Assembly (NCBI GenBank): GCA_003224085.1
Contig: QHYK01000083.1
Span: 1-44,323, forward strand
Direction of reading: 5' to 3'
Length of the DNA: 44,323 bases
DNA from: Acidobacteriota bacterium
GTDB lineage: Bacteria; Acidobacteriota; Terriglobia; Acidiferrales; UBA7541
The notes under the pieces are model-generated. The model made no database searches. It saw only the letters and a list, made by a program, of their open reading frames with translations, and was not told where the DNA came from. Both the position numbers and the translations under genes were made by a program. This document shows positions 928 through 42,420 of the stretch, in pieces. Numbering within the stretch: position 1 is the first letter of the stretch; each line of letters begins with the position of its first letter.

Positions 928-959
928 AGACGTCATGCGCCTTGGGCGCACCACCAATC

Positions 960-981
960 ATGAAAATAGGGTTCAGCGGGC
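960..981. repeat. subterminal inverted repeat of the IS110 element, left copy
   Basis: The 22 bp starting atgaaaatagggttc are a perfect inverted match to 2445-2466. The left copy lies about 32 bp inside the element and the right copy about 6 bp inside. Long perfect subterminal inverted repeats are better known from the IS1111 subgroup than from IS110 proper. Confidence 0.9.
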
Positions 982-984
982 TGG

Positions 985-1165
985 TCCGAGGGCGGGTCAG
1001 TCTGTGGTACAAGCATCCGAGGATGGCGGTTGCTTGGAGGTCGGGAAAGGCTGTGTGGACATCGATCCCGTAGGTAAGACTGACCCGCGCCGGTAAAGGT
1101 ACCACCATTTGTCGCACCCGGAAACGGGAAGGACGTATAGCAGTGTCTGTAACAGACCTGCGGCG
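985..1165 (+). ncRNA. candidate bridge RNA of the IS110 element
   Basis: The left non-coding end contains a perfect 12-bp closing stem, gcgggtcagtct at 992-1003 pairing with agactgacccgc at 1077-1088. It encloses two smaller stems, caagca/tgcttg and cggga/tcccg, giving a multi-branched fold. A further hairpin, gtctg-taa-cagac, lies at 1145-1157. Two short identities look like guides: taggtaagac at 1071-1080 equals the left flank-core-LE junction at 922-931, and atagcag at 1137-1143 equals the right end at 2465-2471. IS110-family elements are known to express such bridge RNAs from a non-coding end. RNA ends and guide pairings here are inferred by eye. Confidence 0.5.
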
Positions 1166-1194
1166 CAGCAATCGCCTCCGCTAAAGGAGGTGCT

Positions 1195-2430
1195 ATGCAA
1201 ACTTTGGTGGAACGTGGCTGTGGAATGGATGTGCATCAGGCCACGGTCGTGGCCTGCTTGTTGATTGTTTTGCAGAACGGAAAAATCCGCCAGAAGCAGA
1301 TACGGACGTTTGGTACCACCACGCGAGAGCTGCTGAGCTTGCGCGAGTGGTTGCTCTCAGAAGGCTGCACTCATACAGCTATGGAGAGCACGGGAGTGTA
1401 TTGGAAGCCGATCTACGCCATCCTTGAGGGAGCTTTCGAGATCGTGGTCGCCAACGCGCAACACGTCAAGAAGGTTCCGGGGCGCAAGACCGACGTGAAG
1501 GACGCGGAATGGATTGCGGACTTGCTCTGCCACGGGCTGCTGCGCTCCAGCTTTGTTCCCCCGAAACCCATTCGCGAACTCCGCGACTTGACGCGCTACC
1601 GCCGCAAGCTGGTGGAAAGCCAGTCGGCGGAGCGCAACCGTCTGCTGAAGCTGCTAGAGACCGCCAACATCAAGTTGGCCAGCGTGGCCACGGACGTATT
1701 TGGAGTCTCCGGCCGACTCATGCTCGAAGCTCTCGTGGAAGGAAGAGCGACCCTCCACGAAATGGCCGAGTTGGCGAAAGGAGCGCTGCGCAAGAAGATC
1801 CCTGAACTGGAGTTGTCGCTCGAAGGAAAGGTAGAAGAACACCATCGTTTCCTGTTGAAGTTGCAACTCGATCGGCTGCAGGCGGTGGAAAAAGATTTGG
1901 TCCTCCTCGAGCAACGCATCCAAGAGAAGCTGCAGCCGTATGAGGCCCAAGTCACCTTGTTGGATGAGATCCCGGGCGTGGATTGGACGCTAGCGGCAGC
2001 GATCATCGCTGAACTGGGTGTGGACATGAATGTCTTCGGGAATGTTTCTCAGCTGGCATCCTGGGCTGGCATTTGTCCTGGCAATAACGAATCTGGCGGC
2101 AAGCGCAAGAGCGGTCGCATCCCAAAAGGCAATGTGTACTTGAAGGCGGCTCTAGTGGAGGCGGCCAACGCAGCGGCGAAAGCTAAGGGCACTTACTTGA
2201 GGGACAAATTTTACCGTCTCAAAGCCCGGCGGGGGTACAAGCGCGCGGCGATAGCGGTGGCCCATAAGATCTTGGTGGCCATCTTTCACATGTTTTCCCA
2301 CCGAGTCTGCTACAACGAATTGGGTGATCTCTACCTCGACAAGCTGAACAAACACCACCTGACTCGAAACTTGGTTCATCGCTTGGAGCGTCTCGGCTAT
2401 ACTGTGACACTAGAACACAAAGCCGCATGA
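1195..2430 (+). CDS. IS110-family transposase (DEDD recombinase)
   Basis: This intact 411-residue protein has the typical IS110 order. An N-terminal DEDD RuvC-like domain contains GMDVHQ (first Asp), MESTGVYWKP (Glu) and GRKTDVKDAEWIADL (paired acidic residues). A middle coiled segment follows, and then the C-terminal transposase_20 domain with IPGVDWTLAAAIIAELG, ASWAGICPGNNESGGKRKSG and a conserved Ser-containing region. The start is well supported: an ideal aaaggagg ribosome-binding site lies at about 1183-1190, 4 nt before ATG. That site is itself in a small hairpin (cctcc/ggagg), so translation may be limited by structure. The enzyme catalyses RNA-guided recombination of the element. It is full-length and may be active. 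Confidence 0.95.
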   Translation: MQTLVERGCGMDVHQATVVACLLIVLQNGKIRQKQIRTFGTTTRELLSLREWLLSEGCTHTAMESTGVYWKPIYAILEGAFEIVVANAQHVKKVPGRKTDVKDAEWIADLLCHGLLRSSFVPPKPIRELRDLTRYRRKLVESQSAERNRLLKLLETANIKLASVATDVFGVSGRLMLEALVEGRATLHEMAELAKGALRKKIPELELSLEGKVEEHHRFLLKLQLDRLQAVEKDLVLLEQRIQEKLQPYEAQVTLLDEIPGVDWTLAAAIIAELGVDMNVFGNVSQLASWAGICPGNNESGGKRKSGRIPKGNVYLKAALVEAANAAAKAKGTYLRDKFYRLKARRGYKRAAIAVAHKILVAIFHMFSHRVCYNELGDLYLDKLNKHHLTRNLVHRLERLGYTVTLEHKAA

Positions 2431-2444
2431 TGCCCAACTCCTCC

Positions 2445-2466
2445 GCCCGCTGAACCCTATTTTCAT
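2445..2466. repeat. subterminal inverted repeat of the IS110 element, right copy
   Basis: A perfect 22-bp inverted match to 960-981, ending about 6 bp before the deduced right end of the element. Confidence 0.9.
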
Positions 2467-2474
2467 AGCAGCAG

Positions 2475-27540: not shown

Positions 27541-27678
27541 AACTTCAAGCGAGCGTGGTCCTGTGTCTAAGGTCGTGGGGCAAGCAAACATCTGCCCTCT
27601 GGTAGTGCCCGACTCGCGACCGTTGCTTTCGGGTTACCAAGCCAGGCGAAGGTGATGTGTTATCGTTTTCTCAATCCC

Positions 27679-30372
27679 ATGAGCACAGCCTTGCCTAGAG
27701 ACTCGGAGTGGCTTACGCGGAAACGCCTGATCGACCCAAAGCTCAAAGCTGCGGGCTGGCGGGTGGTTCGTTTCAGCGACGGCAAGCCCCTTTCTGCGTA
27801 CGACCGCTGCGCAATTGAGGAGTTCCCTACCGACAATGGTCCAGCCGACTACGCCCTGTGCGATTCGGGCAAGCTTCTCGGTATCGTTGAGGCCAAGAAG
27901 CTGACCCTCGGTCCACAGAATGTCTTGACACAGGCGGAGCGGTACGCGAAGGGCGCAGCCAGCAACCCAATGAGCTTTCGGGGCTATCGAGTCCCTTTCC
28001 TTTACTCCACTAACGGCGAGATCATCTGGCACCACGACATCCGCCATCAATTGAGCAGATCACACGCGATCAGTCGCTTTCACACGCCTGAGGCCCTCGC
28101 CGAGAAGCTTGAAAGTGATTTTGATGGAAGCTGCCAGTGCCTCATTCAGACGGCGAATGAACATCCCAAACTGCGCCCGTATCAGCGGGACGCAAACACC
28201 GCCATTGAGAAGGCAATCGGCGACCAAAAGCGGCAAATGCTTGTAGCAATGGCAACGGGCACGGGTAAGACCTTTACGATGGTCAATCAGGTCTACCGCC
28301 TTATGAAGTCAAGTGTTGCCAAACGCATTCTCTTCTTGGTGGATCGCCGTGCGCTCGCAGCACAGGCTGTTCTTGCCTTCGCATCCTTCGAACCGGAGCC
28401 GGGCCTGAAGTTCGATAACATTTACGAGGTGTACAGCCAGCGGTTTCACCGCGAGGATTTTGGGGAGGAGGAGAAATACGACCCGAAGGTCCTTCCCAGT
28501 TCCTACCTGACCAATCCGCAACCATCCCACGCCTTCGTCTATGTCAGCACCATCCAGCGGATGACAATAAACCTCTTTGGCCGGGATGCGATCTTCGCAG
28601 CCGGAGATGAGGAACTCGACGAAGACGCCAACAAACTGGACATCCCCATTCACGCTTTTGATCTGGTAATCGCCGACGAGTGCCACCGTGGTTACACGGC
28701 TCAGGAGCAAGCCATCTGGCGCAAGACACTCGATCACTTTGACGCCATCAAGGTGGGTCTGACGGCCACGCCTGCGGCACACACGATGGCTGCCTTCAAA
28801 GAGATTGTCTACCGTTATGAGTACGAACGCGCCGTCCGCGAAGGGTTCCTCGTCGATTATGACGTAGTGGCTGTCAAATCAAACGTGAGGATGAACGGCA
28901 TTTTTCTCAAAGAAGGCGAGCAGGTGGGCGTCGTAAACCCGGAATCGGGCGCGGAGCAGCTTGACCTGATCGAGGATCAGCGCGAGTTCCCGACCACAGA
29001 GATCGAAGAGAAGGTCACCTCTCCAGACTCGAATCGCAAAATTCTGGAAGAGGTGAAGAAATGGGCGCTGGATCATGAGCAGGAAACTGGGCGTTTCCCC
29101 AAGACCCTGATTTTCGGGGCTAACGATCTTCCCCACACGTCCCACGCTGACCAGTTAGTGGATACGGCTCGTGATATTTTTGGCCGAGGAGATTCGTTTG
29201 TTCAGAAAATAACCGGGCGTGTAGACCGTCCGCTCCAACGCATCCGCGAATTCCGAAATCGCCCTGCTCCGGGTATTGCGGTGACAGTGGATATGCTCTC
29301 GACCGGCGTGGATATTCCTGACCTCGAAGGTATCGTCTTTTTGCGCCCCGTAAAATCCCGCATTCTGTTCGAGCAGATGCTCGGGCGCGGCACCCGCAAG
29401 GGCGAACATTTTCCGCACAAAGATCACTTCACGGTCTTTGACTGTTTCGGGGGTTCACTGTTGGAGTATTTCCGCAAAGCGACAGCGATCACGGCGGAGA
29501 TGCCAACGACGGAATTCAAGACCATCGCTGAAATCATTGAAGACATCTGGGCTAACCGGGACCGAGACTACAACATCCGGCGGCTCGTCAAGCGGCTCCA
29601 GCGGATCAATAAGGCAATGTCCGCCGAAGGGCGGGAACTGTTCGCCGCCTATGTGCCCAATGGCGACATTGGCGAATATGCCGCCGATCTTCCGGGGAAG
29701 CTCCGTCAAGATTTTACTGGCACGATGGCGCTGCTGCGCGACAAGAACTTCCAAGACCTGCTGGTGAATTACCCGCGTGCTCCACGCATCTTCATCAGAG
29801 CTTACGAGACCGAAGATACCGTTACATCGGAGTGGCTCGTGCGCGGGGCGGACGGCAGGGAGTACCGCACCGAGGACTACCTCAGCGCCTTTGGCCGATT
29901 CGTACAGGAAAACCCCAACAAGATAGAAGCGATTCGCATTCTGCTGGGCCGTCCCAAGGATTGGAACACAGCGGTACTGGGGGAGCTTCGGACCAAACTG
30001 GCCGCTACGACTGAGCGATTTAGCGAAGAGCACCTACGCAAAGCACACGAAATCCAATATCGCAAGGCGCTGGTGGACATCATTTCGATGGTCAAACACG
30101 CGGCTGATGATCAGAGGCCACTGCTCACGGCGGAAGAACGGGTTAAACTGGCATTTGCTCACGTCACGACAGGCAGAACGTTCACACCAGAACAGCAGCA
30201 ATGGCTCAACCTCATCGAGGCGCATCTGATTGAGAATCTCACGATTGACCTCGGCGACTTTGATCTGCTTCCGGTGTTCGCCCGAAAGGGCGGATTGAGC
30301 CAAGCGACTCGGGTCTTCGCGGGCCAACTTCAGGATTTGATCGTTCAGTTTAATGAGGCGGTGGCGGCATGA
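27679..30372 (+). CDS. hsdR: type I restriction enzyme, R subunit
   Basis: The product from ATG 27679 is 897 residues. The frame is open to another ATG at 27652 and neither start has a good ribosome-binding site. The nuclease domain shows D57 (PADYAL) and E71-x-K73 (IVEAKK). The translocase has Walker A ATGTGKT (192-198), DECH box (333-336), LTATP and the SF2 motif VI region MLGRGTRKG. A C-terminal helical domain follows, for docking on the methylase. It moves DNA with ATP and cuts it when the target is unmethylated. It leads the operon and overlaps the next gene by 4 nt. Confidence 0.93.
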   Translation: MSTALPRDSEWLTRKRLIDPKLKAAGWRVVRFSDGKPLSAYDRCAIEEFPTDNGPADYALCDSGKLLGIVEAKKLTLGPQNVLTQAERYAKGAASNPMSFRGYRVPFLYSTNGEIIWHHDIRHQLSRSHAISRFHTPEALAEKLESDFDGSCQCLIQTANEHPKLRPYQRDANTAIEKAIGDQKRQMLVAMATGTGKTFTMVNQVYRLMKSSVAKRILFLVDRRALAAQAVLAFASFEPEPGLKFDNIYEVYSQRFHREDFGEEEKYDPKVLPSSYLTNPQPSHAFVYVSTIQRMTINLFGRDAIFAAGDEELDEDANKLDIPIHAFDLVIADECHRGYTAQEQAIWRKTLDHFDAIKVGLTATPAAHTMAAFKEIVYRYEYERAVREGFLVDYDVVAVKSNVRMNGIFLKEGEQVGVVNPESGAEQLDLIEDQREFPTTEIEEKVTSPDSNRKILEEVKKWALDHEQETGRFPKTLIFGANDLPHTSHADQLVDTARDIFGRGDSFVQKITGRVDRPLQRIREFRNRPAPGIAVTVDMLSTGVDIPDLEGIVFLRPVKSRILFEQMLGRGTRKGEHFPHKDHFTVFDCFGGSLLEYFRKATAITAEMPTTEFKTIAEIIEDIWANRDRDYNIRRLVKRLQRINKAMSAEGRELFAAYVPNGDIGEYAADLPGKLRQDFTGTMALLRDKNFQDLLVNYPRAPRIFIRAYETEDTVTSEWLVRGADGREYRTEDYLSAFGRFVQENPNKIEAIRILLGRPKDWNTAVLGELRTKLAATTERFSEEHLRKAHEIQYRKALVDIISMVKHAADDQRPLLTAEERVKLAFAHVTTGRTFTPEQQQWLNLIEAHLIENLTIDLGDFDLLPVFARKGGLSQATRVFAGQLQDLIVQFNEAVAA

Positions 30373-31205
30373 ACCAAACAGAACCTCAGACATCTACAGG
30401 CAATGGTGAACTTGCTGTTGCTGTGTCAGACGAGTTGTCCTTTTCTGACTCAGCCACGGCCTTGGTGACGACAGACCCCACTCATCGCGTGGTGCAACTC
30501 AACTCTGCAAGAAAGAAACCTGTTTCCGTTAAGCCCACAGCCTCGATCTCCGAAGCAATCACGTTGATGATGACTCATAACTTTTCCCAACTCCCAGTCA
30601 TGAGCAGCAGTCGGGCAGTCAAAGGGATTTTCAGCTGGAGGTCACTGGCGCAAAAGGTTGCGTTTGCCAAGAACCCAGGTTTTGTTCAAGACGCCATGGA
30701 AGAAGCAGTTGTCATCGATTCGAACCGCTCGCTGTTCGAGGCTGCCCGGCTGGTCGCCGAGTCGGACTGCGTACTAATCAAAGACCCCGATGCGACGATT
30801 TCGGGAATCCTCACTTCCTACGACTTGAGCGTCAGTTTTGCAGAACGATCAGAGCCTTTCCTCCTACTGGAACAAATTGAAAAGCACATCAGGAATCACA
30901 TGGGCGGGAAGATTTCCCTGTCGGAAATGCGCGAGGTCCGTGATTCTCTGGATGCTGGTAAGAAGGTTTCGGGTGCCGCCAACTTGAGTTTTGGGGATTA
31001 CGTGAGGATTCTGCAAAAACAAGAATGCTGGAGGAAAATTGGCCTCCCATTGGACCAAAAACTTTTCATCAAAAAGCTCGATGAGGTTCGAGATATCCGC
31101 AACAAGGTTATGCATTTCAACCCGAATGGTCTGGCACCCGAAGACATGGGCAAGCTCCGTGAGTTTGCTGGGCTGCTCAGGCAAATTCAAGAAGTCATCA
31201 AGTAA
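30369..31205 (+). CDS. CBS-pair protein with HEPN-like C-terminal domain inside the hsd operon
   Basis: The 278-residue protein has a disordered N-terminus (1-45), then two CBS motifs (about 48-160: PVSVKPTASISEAITLMM, FSQLPVMSSSRAVKGIFSW, and VVIDSNRSLFEAARLVAES, GILTSYDLS). The C-terminal 110 residues are helical and contain RDIRNKVMHFNP, giving R244-x4-H249, the HEPN ribonuclease signature. CBS pairs bind adenosyl ligands, and HEPN domains are often RNases or tRNases. Its place between hsdR and hsdM, with 4-nt overlap to hsdR and 17 nt to hsdM, suggests a backup effector that acts when restriction fails, like PrrC. That role is inferred. A purely regulatory or inactive HEPN is possible. 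Confidence 0.75.
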   Translation: MNQTEPQTSTGNGELAVAVSDELSFSDSATALVTTDPTHRVVQLNSARKKPVSVKPTASISEAITLMMTHNFSQLPVMSSSRAVKGIFSWRSLAQKVAFAKNPGFVQDAMEEAVVIDSNRSLFEAARLVAESDCVLIKDPDATISGILTSYDLSVSFAERSEPFLLLEQIEKHIRNHMGGKISLSEMREVRDSLDAGKKVSGAANLSFGDYVRILQKQECWRKIGLPLDQKLFIKKLDEVRDIRNKVMHFNPNGLAPEDMGKLREFAGLLRQIQEVIK

Positions 31206-31222
31206 TCCGGGGGCCTGACACT

Positions 31223-32695
31223 ATGAGCGATGTTGTCCAGAAACTGTGGGGTTTTTGCCATACGCTGCGCCATGAAGGGATTGATTATGGCGATTACATC
31301 GAGCAACTCACTTATCTACTTTTCCTGAAGATGGCTGATGAGCGCGGCATTGATCTCAGCGAAAAGAAATTCAAAATCGAAAAGAAAGGCAGAGTGGAAG
31401 AAATCGAAGTGGACTGCTCGTGGCCGACCCTCGTGGGGAAGTCGGGAACATCCCTGCGTGACCACTATTCGGACGTACTGCGTGCCCTTGGCCAGCAACG
31501 CGGCATTCTTGGGGACATTTTTGCTGGTGCCCAGTCCAGATTCAATGAGCCTGTTAGCCTCAAGAAGCTACTGGGTCTTATCGATGAAACGGAATGGACC
31601 TCGCTCGATGTTGATGTGAAGGCTGCCGCTTTCGAGGGTCTTCTCGAAAAAGCAGCAAGCGAAGGCAAGAAGGGTGCCGGACAGTATTTCACCCCACGGA
31701 TCCTAATCCAGTCTCTCGTCCGCTGCATGAAGCCCGATCCACGCGCCCACAAAGAGTTCACAGTATGCGATCCGGCGTGTGGTACAGGCGGATTTCTAGT
31801 CTGTGCCTACGAGTGGCTGATCGAGCAGACGGGCGCTGCAATGCCTCGGGAACTGGCGAAGCGTCTGAAATCGGAGACTTACTTTGGGCAGGACTTGGTG
31901 GAGCGGCCCCGACGCCTTGCCCTCATGAATATGTACCTGCACGGGCTGGAACCGCACATTGAGCGGAAGGACTCGATTTACCAGATTCAGGACGGACGCC
32001 ACTTTGATGTTGTAATGACCAATCCCCCTTTCGGGACGAAAGGCGCAAACCAAGCGCCCACACGGGACGACTTCACAGTCGAGACGAGCAACAAACAGCT
32101 TAATTTCATCCAGCATGTAATGACGATCCTGAAGCCCGGTGGACGCGCAGCAGTGGTGGTGCCGGACAACTGCCTGTTCGCTGATCAAGCAGGCGAGGTG
32201 TTCAAAATTCTTACCGAGGATTGCAACCTGCACACCGTGCTGCGGCTGCCGAATGGCACGTTTGTCCCGTACAGCCCTGGCACCAAAACTAATGTGATTT
32301 TCCTCACTAAAGGCTATCCGACCGAGACCGTTTGGGTCTATGACAGCCGCACAAACGTTCCGCATATCACGAAGAAGGATCGCCCCCTCGCTCCCAACCA
32401 ATTTGCCGAGTTCGAGAGTTGCTACGGCAGCGATCCCAATGGCCGCGCTAAACGCAAGGTAGCCGATTCGAAGGAAAACCGCTGGCGTTCATTCTCCATG
32501 GCAGAAATCAAGGAGCGCGACTTCAAGATAGATAACCTGAAGTGGCTCAAGGACGAGTCTCTTGATGATGGCGACGACTCCATGGAGCCCGAGGAATTAG
32601 TCACAGACGCCATCGCCGAGCTTGAAGCCGCAGTTGAGGGACTAAATGCCGTGGTCGCTGCGCTTGAGAACGGGAACGCCAAGGCAAAGGCATAG
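31223..32695 (+). CDS. hsdM: type I DNA methyltransferase, M subunit
   Basis: The 490-residue protein has the N-terminal HsdM helical domain and an N6-adenine methyltransferase fold: GQYFTPR (153-159), motif I DPACGTGG (183-190) for S-adenosylmethionine and the catalytic NPPF (267-270). The C-terminus is acidic and helical (EPEELVTDAIAELEAAVEGL). With HsdS it forms the methylase that protects host DNA. Confidence 0.95.
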   Translation: MSDVVQKLWGFCHTLRHEGIDYGDYIEQLTYLLFLKMADERGIDLSEKKFKIEKKGRVEEIEVDCSWPTLVGKSGTSLRDHYSDVLRALGQQRGILGDIFAGAQSRFNEPVSLKKLLGLIDETEWTSLDVDVKAAAFEGLLEKAASEGKKGAGQYFTPRILIQSLVRCMKPDPRAHKEFTVCDPACGTGGFLVCAYEWLIEQTGAAMPRELAKRLKSETYFGQDLVERPRRLALMNMYLHGLEPHIERKDSIYQIQDGRHFDVVMTNPPFGTKGANQAPTRDDFTVETSNKQLNFIQHVMTILKPGGRAAVVVPDNCLFADQAGEVFKILTEDCNLHTVLRLPNGTFVPYSPGTKTNVIFLTKGYPTETVWVYDSRTNVPHITKKDRPLAPNQFAEFESCYGSDPNGRAKRKVADSKENRWRSFSMAEIKERDFKIDNLKWLKDESLDDGDDSMEPEELVTDAIAELEAAVEGLNAVVAALENGNAKAKA

Positions 32696-32723
32696 ACCAA
32701 CCTGAGAAACTCGCGGAGAAAGC

Positions 32724-34280
32724 ATGAGGGCAAAGGCAACAACGCAAACCGTGCGCGAGGACGAGACCCCCGGCGATCTGCCGGAGGGCTGGGCGCTCGC
32801 CCCCGCAGGCGACGTATTTACATTCGTGACAAGCGGTTCGCGGGGCTGGGCGCAATACTATGCCGAAACGGGTGCACTATTCCTCAGAATCGCCAATCTG
32901 AATCACGACGACATTGCCATTGATCTTTCACAGAAGAAGTACGTTAATCCCCCAAGGTCCGCAGAAGGCACACGAACGCGGGTGAAGCTCCGAGATCTAC
33001 TTATCTCGATTACAGCTGATGTGGGAATGGTCGGCTTGGTAAAACATGATTTGGGCGAGGCTTACATCAATCAGCATATCGCGCTGGCACGACTGGCCGA
33101 AGGGCTGGATGATGCGTATGTCAGCTGGTACATTGCTTCGACGGGCGGACAAAAACAGCTGGGGGATCTCCAGAGAGGAGCAACGAAGGTAGGGCTTGGC
33201 CTTGACGACATTCGCTCAATCAACTTGCCTTTCGCACCATTAGTCGAGCAGCGCCGCATCGTTGCAAAAATCGACGAACTCCTCGAAAAAGTAAATGTTT
33301 CTCGTGAGCGCCTCGCCAAAGTTCCCAAAATCCTGAGGGCGTTCCGCCAAGCCGTACTAGCATCGGCTTGCTCCGGACGTCTCACTGAAGACTGGCGCAC
33401 AGAAGAGGCAAACACGAAGGATATTGCGCCAATCATTTCGTCAATTCAAAAAAGACGCGAGTCCGAAGCCAACTCTCCCAAGGAAAAGGAAAGAATCAGA
33501 CAAATCTATACGCAGTCAGAGGAAGGGGATTCGGGTGAACTGCCGGAAGGCTGGGGCTTTGTCAGATTGAATAAGCTCTGCTCTTCGTTCGAGTACGGAA
33601 CGTCGGCCAAATCACAGCCCTCAGGGAAAGTGCCTGTTCTCCGCATGGGAAATATTCAAGGTGGCAAGATCAACTGGACTGATCTTGCGTACAGTTCGGA
33701 TAGAGATGAGATTCGCCAATATGAATTGACGCCGCAAACGGTGCTGTTTAATCGAACCAACAGTCCCGAACTAGTCGGCAAAACCGCAATCTACCTTGGT
33801 GAGCATCCTGCGATCTTCGCGGGCTACCTCATCAAAATCAATCGTCTTCCCGAAATCGACGCTCGCTATCTTAACTTTTGCCTGAACACCAACTATGCGA
33901 GGGATTTCTGCTCCCGCGTTAAGACGGACGCCGTGGGACAGTCGAATATCAACGCACAAAAACTGGGAACCTTCGAGGTGCCCTTTTGCACGCTGGGTGA
34001 ACAACACGAGATCGCCCGCCGTGTCGAGGCTCTATTCAAGCTAGCCGACGCGATTGAAATGCGCGTTGCCACTGCAACTTGGCGGACTGAAAAGTTGACG
34101 CAAGCAATTCTCGCCAAAGCCTTCCGAGGCGAACTCGTTCCCACCGAAGCCGAACTCGCTCGCCGCGAAAGACGCACCTATGAACCCGCCTCCGCCCTCC
34201 TCGCCAGAATCCGTACTGCCACCAACGAAGATTCGAACAATGGCGCTCCGTCGAAACAAGAGAAACGGACAGCTAAATGA
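32724..34280 (+). CDS. hsdS: type I specificity subunit
   Basis: The 518-residue protein has two target-recognition domains, each introduced by LPEGW (about 15-195 and 270-430). Each is followed by a conserved helical spacer: LVEQRRIVAKIDELLEKVNVSRERL and LGEQHEIARRVEALFKLADAIEMRV, then a motif KAFRGELVPTEAELARRE. The two domains differ, so the recognised site should be bipartite and asymmetric. The stop overlaps the start of the next gene (ATGA), which is unusual for hsdS at the end of the set. Confidence 0.95.
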   Translation: MRAKATTQTVREDETPGDLPEGWALAPAGDVFTFVTSGSRGWAQYYAETGALFLRIANLNHDDIAIDLSQKKYVNPPRSAEGTRTRVKLRDLLISITADVGMVGLVKHDLGEAYINQHIALARLAEGLDDAYVSWYIASTGGQKQLGDLQRGATKVGLGLDDIRSINLPFAPLVEQRRIVAKIDELLEKVNVSRERLAKVPKILRAFRQAVLASACSGRLTEDWRTEEANTKDIAPIISSIQKRRESEANSPKEKERIRQIYTQSEEGDSGELPEGWGFVRLNKLCSSFEYGTSAKSQPSGKVPVLRMGNIQGGKINWTDLAYSSDRDEIRQYELTPQTVLFNRTNSPELVGKTAIYLGEHPAIFAGYLIKINRLPEIDARYLNFCLNTNYARDFCSRVKTDAVGQSNINAQKLGTFEVPFCTLGEQHEIARRVEALFKLADAIEMRVATATWRTEKLTQAILAKAFRGELVPTEAELARRERRTYEPASALLARIRTATNEDSNNGAPSKQEKRTAK

Positions 34281-40310: not shown

Positions 40311-41155
40311 GGCATTTCCTGAAGACTGTGGCTTGGCTCGGTGGCTACGTCACCCCGGAACAGGCGCAAGAGCTTGGAATCAGGAACTCAGTAACCAGGG
40401 TCCATGTCCAGTTAAAGGATTTGGAGTCCTGGCGCTTTATCAAACCCGTCAGTGCGTACCCGTCGATTTACCAGGTCACGAAATCCGTGACCCGGCTCAT
40501 GGGCGCTGACTTGTCGGCCCGGCGTCAGCACACCCTTGAGACCATTCAAACCCGCCTTCTGACGGTGAACTTTTACCTGGAGGCGATCCACTGGCCAGTT
40601 GAATTCGTGTTCGACCATAAGCAGAAGATCTCTAAGATTTGCGAGCTGATTCACGAACCCTTCTTGCTGCCGCATCGCAGCAGTAAGCCGTATCTCTGGC
40701 AGGACATCGTCCTTCAGCGTCCGTCCGGAGAAGTCGTCCTCACGATGGTTGACCACTTCGGTCGGCATCCCTATCGCCAGTTGTACCGGCACTTGAAACG
40801 ATTTGCCCCGACCCTCGGCCCACATGATCTGGGGTTGATGATCGTGGTCAGCTCCGAGCGCCGTGAACAGCTATTTCGCCGTCAGCTCAACCGCACGGGG
40901 CTACAGCGGCTCTTGGAGAGCCAAGGCGTATACCTGCCGTTGCGGGACATGGTGACGATCTACCGTGTCCGACGGGCGGTGCCCGTCGTCCGCCCGGTCA
41001 TCACGAACAGGCAACAACTTCGCGAGCTGCGAGCCCGGAAGCTCGCCAACCAAGGGCTGAGCGACGCGCAGCAGCAGACCAGACATGTCATCCACAACAA
41101 GGGCACCCATACGAAAACCGCAATTTCGAACGAAGAAGGAGGCACGTCATGGTGA
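40259..41155 (+). CDS. winged-helix DNA-binding protein of a mobilizable element
   Basis: The 298-residue protein starts at GTG 40259 after gaggtgaatct. The N-terminal winged helix (FLKTVAWLGGYVTPEQAQELGIRNSVTRVHVQLKDLESWRFIKPV) resembles replication-relaxation family proteins found beside relaxases. The middle has Trp/Gln-rich beta segments (YLWQDIVLQRPSGEVVLTMVDHFGRHPYRQLYRHL). The C-terminus is basic and low in complexity. It overlaps the relaxase gene by 7 nt. It probably acts as an auxiliary or regulator for the relaxase. Confidence 0.7.
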   Translation: MNIFRFRDRLGILDERSRHFLKTVAWLGGYVTPEQAQELGIRNSVTRVHVQLKDLESWRFIKPVSAYPSIYQVTKSVTRLMGADLSARRQHTLETIQTRLLTVNFYLEAIHWPVEFVFDHKQKISKICELIHEPFLLPHRSSKPYLWQDIVLQRPSGEVVLTMVDHFGRHPYRQLYRHLKRFAPTLGPHDLGLMIVVSSERREQLFRRQLNRTGLQRLLESQGVYLPLRDMVTIYRVRRAVPVVRPVITNRQQLRELRARKLANQGLSDAQQQTRHVIHNKGTHTKTAISNEEGGTSW

Positions 41156-42420
41156 AAACCGCAACGGCTGTGGCGCGGAAAATCTGGCGACAGATTTCTC
41201 GGCAGATTTTCCGCCAAAATGGAACCCTTACCCTTCCTGTACCGGAACACCCCCGGGGGCAAGAATCGGGGGCGGTCCTGGGGACGTTCGAACCGCCCCC
41301 GGAATCGCAGCGAGTCTTGCTCGATGATCTGACCCAGAGCATCCTGTCTCGGCTGCCGGAAGAGATGGGCTGCCGTGCACGCGGTGCGCGTGTCATGGCA
41401 AAGCTACGCGACCTGGTCGGCGACCTGCCGGCCAGCGCCGACCATCACCACAGCAGCCGCTTTGGGCTTCTACAGCACTCGCTCGAAGTCGCCCTCAAGA
41501 TGCTGGAGGAGTTTGAAAAGACGCTTCTCCCCGATGCCCCTCCCGACGTGGCCCTTTTCAATACCGAGGCAGACCCTCTGCAAACGCAGTACCTCTGCTT
41601 CCTCGCTGGCCTGGGACACGACCTCGGTAAGCTGTTTGACATTGAGTTGGTGGTAGGAGAGCAGCGTTGGTCTCCCCTGAACCAGACCTACGCCGAGTTT
41701 CTGAGAGAAGTCAAAAGGGAGCCGGTGCTGGAATGGAATAAGAAGCGGGTACGCGGTGGTCATGCTCAGTTCTCGCCCTGGCTTATGCACCATCTTTTGA
41801 GTCCCGCCGATATCCGATTCATCGGTTTGGAAAGGTTGCCTGAACTCACGGGCGCACTTACCGGTACTCATGCCGACGACGACTCAACCCCTCTGGCGCG
41901 TCTCGTGAGCAAGCTCGATCAGCAGAGCGTCGAGCAAGCGGCGCCCGAGTGGATGATCAAGCGACCCGACAGCAAGGTCAATCAGTTCATCCGTGCCCTT
42001 AGGCAGCTGATCTCAGACGGTCGGCTGAGCGTCAATACTCTCGGCGCGCCGGTCTTTGTCACGGGCGACAAAGCCGCTGTAGTCATACCGCGCTCGCTCT
42101 CCGCGGCCCGCGATTTCCTGAAGCAGGAGGATCGTATCAGGCTGCCTTCCAACCACCACCTCTATGACCTCCTGGCGCAAGCAGAAGTTGTGGAAGCGGA
42201 TGAACACCGTCAATGCGTGAAGAGGATCAGTGTACCGGGGAAGCGTGGCCCGGTCGAACTCTATGCCTTGATCTTCGCGACAAACACGATCATCCCGCAG
42301 GCGATTCTGCCGACGTTGCCCAAAGTCACGTTTGAGCTCGTGCCCGAACCGAAACAAACAAGCAAGTCTGCCCACACTAGGGAGGAGACGCCGACAGTTG
42401 CAGTACAGCCGCTCGGTTAG
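41149..42420 (+). CDS. MobH/TraI_2-type relaxase-like protein
   Basis: The 423-residue protein has a ribosome site gaaggaggcacgtc before ATG 41149. The TraI_2/MobH signature is visible: a His-rich motif ADHHHSSRFGLLQHSLEVALKML, followed by the HD pair in FLAGLGHDLGKLFDIELV and a later RWSPLNQTYAEFLRE. This family cuts and joins DNA at an origin of transfer for ICE-type elements. The length is shorter than large MobH relaxases, and helicase domains are absent. Together with the integrase at the right edge it suggests an integrative mobilizable element. No type IV secretion genes are in the window. Confidence 0.8.
   Translation: MVKTATAVARKIWRQISRQIFRQNGTLTLPVPEHPRGQESGAVLGTFEPPPESQRVLLDDLTQSILSRLPEEMGCRARGARVMAKLRDLVGDLPASADHHHSSRFGLLQHSLEVALKMLEEFEKTLLPDAPPDVALFNTEADPLQTQYLCFLAGLGHDLGKLFDIELVVGEQRWSPLNQTYAEFLREVKREPVLEWNKKRVRGGHAQFSPWLMHHLLSPADIRFIGLERLPELTGALTGTHADDDSTPLARLVSKLDQQSVEQAAPEWMIKRPDSKVNQFIRALRQLISDGRLSVNTLGAPVFVTGDKAAVVIPRSLSAARDFLKQEDRIRLPSNHHLYDLLAQAEVVEADEHRQCVKRISVPGKRGPVELYALIFATNTIIPQAILPTLPKVTFELVPEPKQTSKSAHTREETPTVAVQPLG

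Follow-up and report, generated by a model that had tools for sequence, protein, structure and literature searches.

A left-end bridge RNA predicted in an IS110-family element with IS1111-type features

An istA gene of an Acidobacteriota bacterium is interrupted by an IS110-family mobile element whose own bridge RNA, predicted at about positions 1025-1176 in the stretch from the left end of the element to the recombinase gene, would guide its DEDD recombinase; we put the probability of this reading at roughly 0.87. Judged by its sequence and those of its relatives, this is a real, probably functional RNA-guided element, and it belongs to a subfamily in which features of the IS110 and IS1111 groups are mixed. 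Positions refer to the window, the whole stretch of 44,323 nt that was analyzed (contig QHYK01000083.1).

The element and its host gene

928-2471, + strand: IS110-family element, AG core at each end (left, 928-929; right, 2470-2471 by the guide or 2473-2474 by the host gene)
1195-2430, + strand: DEDD recombinase, 411 aa; NF033542 "IS110 family RNA-guided transposase," 287.2 bits (cutoff 140)
70-927, - strand: 3' part of the interrupted istA; IS21 family transposase, 137 bits, below the cutoff of 160
2473-2589, - strand: 5' part of the interrupted istA, 39 codons
923-931, + strand: left junction read by the RNA (target AGGTA, 923-927; core AG, 928-929; element AC, 930-931)
2465-2471, + strand: right end ATAGC plus core AG, identical to RNA 1137-1143

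The minus-strand istA of an IS21 element is split between ..RRETAGA, which is encoded in the right flank, and YLKAAG.., which is encoded in the left. An earlier note on this DNA, made from its letters alone, had described an intact IS110 element nested in istA, and this description holds: the reading frame 1195-2430 is intact, IS110-family profiles match it, and istA is broken. Pfam DEDD_Tnp_IS110 (105.5 bits) and Transposase_20 (76.1 bits) both score over their cut-offs, and the protein carries the motifs MDVHQ (11), MESTG (63), TDVKDAE (99), and NESGG (298). The IS621 recombinase (8wt6) is the sole solved structure matched by sequence (E 1.8e-10), and the regions of the E, D..D, and S motifs align to it. 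A recombinase tree of 31 rows, with long branches, a deep fork (64/71), only a partial IS621, and no IS1111 reference that was verified, did not assign the element to either group. About 39 nt separate the stop codon from the right core.

The ends had also been called exact, with AG at both junctions. AG is indeed found at both, and the left core is fixed at 928-929, but the right end is ambiguous by 3 bp. The RNA guide, ATAGC-AG on 2465-2471, places the right core at 2470-2471, as in relatives, whereas three uninterrupted istA homologues (L108, L109, and L110), which align with no extra residue, place it at 2473-2474. The junction reads AGCAGCAGC, with AGC three times, one of which is unaccounted for; slippage as its source is a guess. 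This surplus AGC aside, the homologues fit an insertion site free of duplication, with AG at both junctions.

Several observations concern the surroundings of the element. A related istA elsewhere in the same genome (L112:1400-1700, contig C155) lacks 4 bp and is frameshifted exactly at the insertion site; the gap, 7 bp if the other right junction is assumed, could be due to chance or could be the scar of an excision. A 39-bp tandem repeat in istA (760-868; 2.8 copies, length a multiple of three) has GGCCGGTTTTG in common with the pair of 25-bp repeats at 2645-2693, which looks like a spread of end-repeat sequence into the istA coding region. Farther away, at 27652-34280 and 41149-42420, lie HsdR-, HsdM-, and HsdS-like type I restriction-modification genes and a MobH-like relaxase, all under curated cut-offs, hinting at a mobile or integrated region.

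Relatives of the element

The genome holds one full copy of the element and two partial matches of 68% and 78% DNA identity, one of them a cut-off relative on contig C136 (55% amino acid identity). With a single full copy there, mobility of the window's copy is putative. Relatives were taken mainly from the best 80 of 504 in a scan of one genome per species, among which none exceeds 89% amino acid identity (best segment, L005). Further relatives came from a phylum scan, in which 13 of 396 genomes matched at E<=1e-100 (the element's own genome counted), and from three viral contigs.

From 102 sources, 84 were given to the covariance search described below, the 18 omitted being copies of the window itself, near-identical copies, fragments, and loci in which little sequence precedes the gene. 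The resulting 85 RNA matches were reduced to 64 for the left-guide test by dropping 18 that were more than 93% alike and three without a left repeat or flank. Removal of six without a readable right end left 58 for the right-end test, where some ends are perhaps misplaced (the core reads AC in L047 and GG in L018). Smaller subsets served for the handshake (59 of the 64), the right target guide (53 of the 58), segment R3 and the within-cluster tests (57 of the 64), and the covariation map (41 of the 57). L013 and L085 have the same RNA.

One relative, L016:875-1254, is a 379-bp mini-element that lacks a recombinase gene but is equipped with the left-end hairpin, the repeat, the bridge RNA, and a right end; it is non-autonomous and brings its own guide RNA. 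A full element sits exactly at its right end. More widely, the left flank resembles the right end of a sibling element in seven of the 64 elements (L011, L013, L016, L022 (2938), L023, L032, and L063; ten pattern matches, three discarded by eye), and in six of these seven the target guide matches at 7 or 8 of 8 positions. On sequence, such guides appear to be aimed at the ends of siblings, giving tandem rows of elements.

The predicted bridge RNA

1025-1176, + strand: bridge RNA, predicted extent, closed by stem P1 (1025-1034/1167-1176)
1039-1085, + strand: target-binding loop, closed by P2 (1039-1042/1082-1085)
1087-1166, + strand: donor-binding domain, closed by P3 (1087-1092/1161-1166), with hairpin P4 (1110-1135) inside
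992-1003, + strand: upstream arm complementary to 1077-1088, in the window-like group only

The proposal of a bridge RNA at the left end has been strengthened by a covariance-model search. The model, R1, built from 37 aligned RNAs, detected the RNA at E<=9.1e-6 in 82 of the 84 sources, of which 45 lay outside the training set; L069 and L100 gave no match. The stems covary in two subgroups, on whose alignments P1 and P3 were tested with pairs placed by hand from one row, so that the following paired-cell figures lean towards the structure: 87.6% of stem cells are paired in nine close elements, compared with 34-47% when the pairing is slid, and 97.6% in 22 Firmicutes-type elements, compared with 35.5-40.8%. 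In the close elements, the covariation score is higher than in all 500 shuffles and seven of the ten P1 pairs have changes on both sides; further pair types, one of five covariation measures, did not exceed shuffles (110/500). G-U occurs on the RNA strand in 62 of 638 cells of the Firmicutes-type elements, and because these cells would not pair on the opposite strand, the RNA has the same orientation as the recombinase gene. Folded alone, window positions 1020-1180 adopt the bridge RNA structure (MFE -70.1, z -3.55).

P1 and P3 were not recovered when RNAalifold was run on the full alignment of 37 RNAs, which we attribute to a loss of register at the 3' end of that alignment. The window had no match in Rfam at gathering thresholds, and a promoter scan of 900-1250 returned no promoter-like site. 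An apical 3-bp stem considered for the window's target loop was set aside as unsupported, only 59% of its cells being paired in the close group.

The earlier note had closed the RNA with a different stem, 12 bp long, between 992-1003 and 1077-1088. This stem exists and is perfect in the window; as the closing stem, it gives way to the covarying P1. That the bridge RNA is closed by it is highly unlikely. The predicted fold of 930-1190 does form it instead of the bridge RNA stem, and it is kept with altered sequences in several members of the window-like group (L007, L008, L009, L091, L093, and L099). However, its downstream arm takes in the core and handshake along with part of P2 and of P3, so that it is incompatible with P2 and part of P3, both of which covary across the family, and it would pair the core and handshake bases needed for reading DNA. 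Nor does it give any signal in the 48 other elements (5.94 own versus 5.80 swapped, 2,628/20,000), and L006, among the two closest relatives, keeps 8 of the 12 pairs, without a run of at least 7 nt.

Within the window-like group, a set of 13 elements assembled from their RNA rather than by phylogeny, the 12-bp stem scores 9.15/12 own versus 8.13 swapped (2/20,000), and nine of the 13 have a run of at least 7 nt. In a longer transcript, the 992-1003 arm would, by base pairing, mask the core, the handshake, and P2. The stem could then act as a switch in some elements, transcripts from the joined ends including 992-1003 and having a masked target loop and those starting downstream folding into the active form. 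Two mutually exclusive stems, each kept with changed sequences, and the folding of 1020-1180 as the bridge RNA but of 930-1190 with the other stem fit such a switch. Against it stand the empty promoter scan, its dependence on 13 elements grouped by RNA in which swapped arms also pair well, and the lack of a run of at least 7 nt in four of the 13 (L006, L010, L012, and L086), and we regard it as improbable.

Guides, core, and handshake

1072-1080, + strand: left target guide AGGTA, core AG, and 2-nt handshake AC, on the 3' side of the target loop
1044-1053, + strand: position of the right target guide, in the 5' part of the target loop; the window's own guide matches weakly, at 4/7
1137-1143, + strand: donor guide ATAGC plus core AG, on the 3' side of the donor loop

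Two identities between the RNA region and the ends of the element had been pointed out, and both are present: TAGGTAAGAC occurs at 922-931 and 1071-1080, and ATAGCAG at 1137-1143 is the same as 2465-2471 (7/7). By our arithmetic, a 10-nt direct repeat is expected by chance about once per 1.67 kb (another, D9, is listed), and a 7-nt identity alone is meaningless; it is only through comparison with relatives that both become significant. There, own guides outperform swapped ones. The left guide plus core matches the left junction at 6.83/8 own versus 4.82 swapped (0 of 20,000 permutations, n = 64), with 7 or 8 of 8 in 49 of the 64 and 8/8 in the window. The donor guide matches the right end at 7/7 in 48 of 58 elements (0/20,000), the window included. 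These two are the fair tests of the guides, as swapped guides were searched identically.

Position by position, the left match takes in five bases of the flank, the core, and the first two bases of the element, and goes no farther; here and in the covariation map the flank positions, and in the map also the right-end cells, are inflated by the choice of the 59, 57, and 53 subsets by guide match. The handshake and R3 positions played no part in that choice. The two handshake bases are matched in 88% (+1) and 98% (+2) of 59 elements, compared with 43% and 51% swapped (0/20,000 each), and occupy the same position relative to the 3'-side guide as the handshake guides described for IS621 (PMC11208158). 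On the 5' side of the loop, the right target guide is complementary to the right flank across the family (0/20,000, n = 53); the window's own, at 4/7 versus a swapped mean of 3.7, is no better than chance. When permutation was confined to clusters of similar RNAs, the left guide, right end, right target guide, and handshake each still gave 0/20,000, the left- and right-guide values being likewise inflated by guide-based selection.

A donor-loop handshake is weak in the family. When donor-loop bases beyond the core are compared with the right flank, the counts out of 20,000 are 72 (+1), 262 (+2), 20,000 (+3), 53 (+4), and 6,576 (+5), and within clusters 14 and 523; we offer no reading of the +4 signal. 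The window's TG at this place does not match its right flank. The core is AG in both loops in 79 of the 85 RNA matches, is AA in both in five (L037, L079, L094, L095, and L096, with AA also at the right end in L037 and L079), and is masked in one.

Sibling insertions, to which the earlier note had looked for agreement between flanks and guides, provide it on the left. In Paenibacillus sp. HW567, the guide-matching left flank ATATA-AG is found in all five identical or near-identical copies fetched, and in P. brasilensis GTATT-AG is found in all five fetched, several of which have longer common flanks and are perhaps not independent.

Taken across the subfamily, sequence comparison thus documents an RNA with its stems, its target, donor, and handshake matches, a core, and a common layout. 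The window's copy could still be the dead relic of an old insertion that has no present function, as the single full copy, the surplus AGC at the right junction, and the weak right target guide might suggest; an intact 411-aa reading frame with catalytic motifs, intact ends, and guides at 8/8 and 7/7 make this unlikely.

The left end and segment R3

936-950, + strand: left-end hairpin TGCGCC-TTG-GGCGCA; a hairpin of variable sequence lies at the same place in most relatives
950-956, + strand: left-end segment ACCACCA, identical to RNA 1101-1107 (R3)
1101-1108, + strand: distal donor segment R3, on the 5' side of the donor loop
960-981, + strand: left subterminal inverted repeat, 22 bp, of which relatives mirror only a ATGAAAAT-like core
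2445-2466, + strand: right subterminal inverted repeat, 22 bp, perfect mate of 960-981

Most relatives share a left-end layout in which flank and core are followed by a short run of bases, frequently with CAT at its end, and then by a hairpin of variable sequence, CACC-like bases, a ATGAAAAT-like repeat, the RNA, and the gene. The longest perfect stem of the hairpin averages 5.2 bp, compared with 3.5 in letter shuffles, and reaches at least 5 bp in 41 of 57 elements. The segment 950-956, to which R3 is identical, lies past the hairpin and just outside the repeat, and in the window 20 nt separate it from the core.

This identity recurs in the family, at 5.37/7 own versus 4.32 swapped (0/20,000, n = 57), and persists within clusters (0/20,000). 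Of seven column windows, six give 0-3/20,000 for it, and the remaining one (columns 0-8) gives 13,439. In the covariation map of 41 elements, a diagonal of sT-6..-3 against RNA columns 88-91 holds the strongest cells outside the flank, right end, and handshake. Complementarity, which symmetry with the target loop predicts, was also considered and was rejected as the weaker signal: the 5' side of the donor loop gave 3,989-12,600/20,000 in four of the seven column windows and 193-883 in the other three, and within clusters 21 and 117 of 20,000. Our reading of these patterns is that the R3 RNA would pair with the bottom strand of the left-end DNA.

A competing explanation, which we find somewhat less than even in probability, is that R3 and the left end are sites for the same protein surface that drift together, with no pairing of RNA and DNA. 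It would fit the placement of the identity on the same strand as the right-end guide, opposite to that expected from symmetry with the target loop, the contribution of a conserved CACCA to the match, and the weak signal that the complement likewise has. The strongest covarying cells outside the flank, right end, and handshake nevertheless form a diagonal, long private matches exist (e.g. CACGTATGAA in L037), and the identity stands at 0/20,000 even within clusters, all of which speak for pairing of R3 with the DNA.

The 22-bp perfect repeat 960-981/2445-2466 had been noted as unusual beside a guide RNA on the left. The repeat is there, but a short one is normal in this subfamily: its length is 6-10 bp in 44 of 46 elements, two in one, and 22 in the window alone. 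In L004 and L006, just 8 bp of the left arm are mirrored at the right end, and the additional 14 bp in the window are, on sequence, beyond chance. The 22-bp repeat is a private extension of the short repeat found in most of the subfamily, for which templated copying of the left arm into the right end is the likeliest origin and which implies no function. The distance from the start of the core to the left repeat is 30-44 in 61 of 64 elements; in the window, core and repeat are 30 bp apart.

Comparison with the IS110 and IS1111 groups

The comparisons that follow are with IS621 (PMC11208160, PMC11208158), ISEc21, and the IS1111 group (PMC11187229) as portrayed in these papers. With IS621 and ISEc21 the element shares a DEDD/RuvC-Tnp recombinase, and with the IS110 group an RNA upstream of the recombinase gene and two loops, with a core in each and a 2-nt handshake 3' of the 3'-side guide. 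The guide order of that group, the bottom-strand guide 5' of the top-strand one, is however reversed across the present family (the window's right target guide being weak): in the target loop, pairing is with the top strand of the right flank for the 5' side and with the bottom strand of the left flank for the 3' side. The core is AG rather than the CT of IS621 and ISEc21, and the subterminal repeats measure 22 bp in the window and 6-10 bp in 44 of the 46 elements, compared with 2-3 bp in the IS110 group. The left-end hairpin and the extra matched segment further set the subfamily apart from IS621 and ISEc21.

Elements of the IS1111 group (e.g. ISEc11, ISKpn4, and ISPa11), whose RNA is termed seekRNA, have subterminal inverted repeats as here, and their guides are in the same order, the top-strand complement lying 5' of the bottom-strand match (PMC11187229). 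Their repeats are of 7-17 bp, a published range that the 6-10 bp of 44 of 46 elements overlaps and the window's 22 bp exceeds. Unlike here, their RNA lies downstream of the gene, and the left extension of ISEc11 is reported as 7 bp (PMC11187229), whereas the window's left core lies 30 bp from its left repeat. The subfamily is therefore mixed as far as sequence can tell, its left RNA being IS110-like and its guide order and terminal repeats IS1111-like.

Judging from the same source, the combination of a left-end RNA with IS1111-type features is not unprecedented, given that IS1111 relatives with upstream regions are described: ISMtsp17 has an upstream non-coding region, and ISHvo10 and ISAcp5 have long regions on both sides (PMC11187229). 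By this description, they have an upstream non-coding region in common with the present element, and they may belong to its subfamily. In searches of open-licence journal papers, no description was found of guide order or donor reading in IS1111 relatives with upstream regions.

Proposed mode of operation

The features above would be accounted for as follows. The first loop would read the target, its 3' side AGGTA-AG-AC corresponding to the left flank, core, and first two bases of the element, and its 5' side, in the family, pairing with the right flank on the opposite strand. The donor, the joined ends of a circle, would be read by the second loop, whose 3' side ATAGC-AG corresponds to the right end and whose 5' side corresponds to the left-end DNA adjoining the inverted repeat. 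The RNA-bound recombinase would then bring circle and target together at the AG core for a strand exchange that leaves no target duplication, and the copy in istA may have arisen in this way. We infer transcription, RNA-protein binding, a circular intermediate, strand exchange, and present activity. The weak right target guide, the unmatched donor handshake TG, the surplus AGC, the single full copy in the genome, the empty promoter scan and Rfam search, the fold of 930-1190, and the one covariation measure that did not exceed shuffles all count against this account.

A bolder version, which we hold only tentatively and think doubtful, sees a mirror-image bridge RNA system. It would combine a left-end RNA with IS1111-type order, a third segment in the donor loop that reads the left end behind a conserved hairpin that is skipped or folded out, a first exchanged strand opposite to that of IS621, and, in some elements including the window's, an upstream mask of the target loop.

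Concluding remarks

A common ancestor of the IS110 and IS1111 groups has been proposed, with the RNA having moved between ends and repeat length having changed (PMC11208160). The mixed subfamily offers a concrete test case for that history. It also constitutes a set of recombinases of a type other than IS621 and gives natural evidence, beyond the close kin of IS621, of handshake matching at two bases past the core, and it predicts an extra donor-reading segment. If the mirror-image arrangement were true, the strand exchanged first would be the opposite of that in IS621, and in some elements, the window's included, only RNAs that start downstream of the masking strand may be active.
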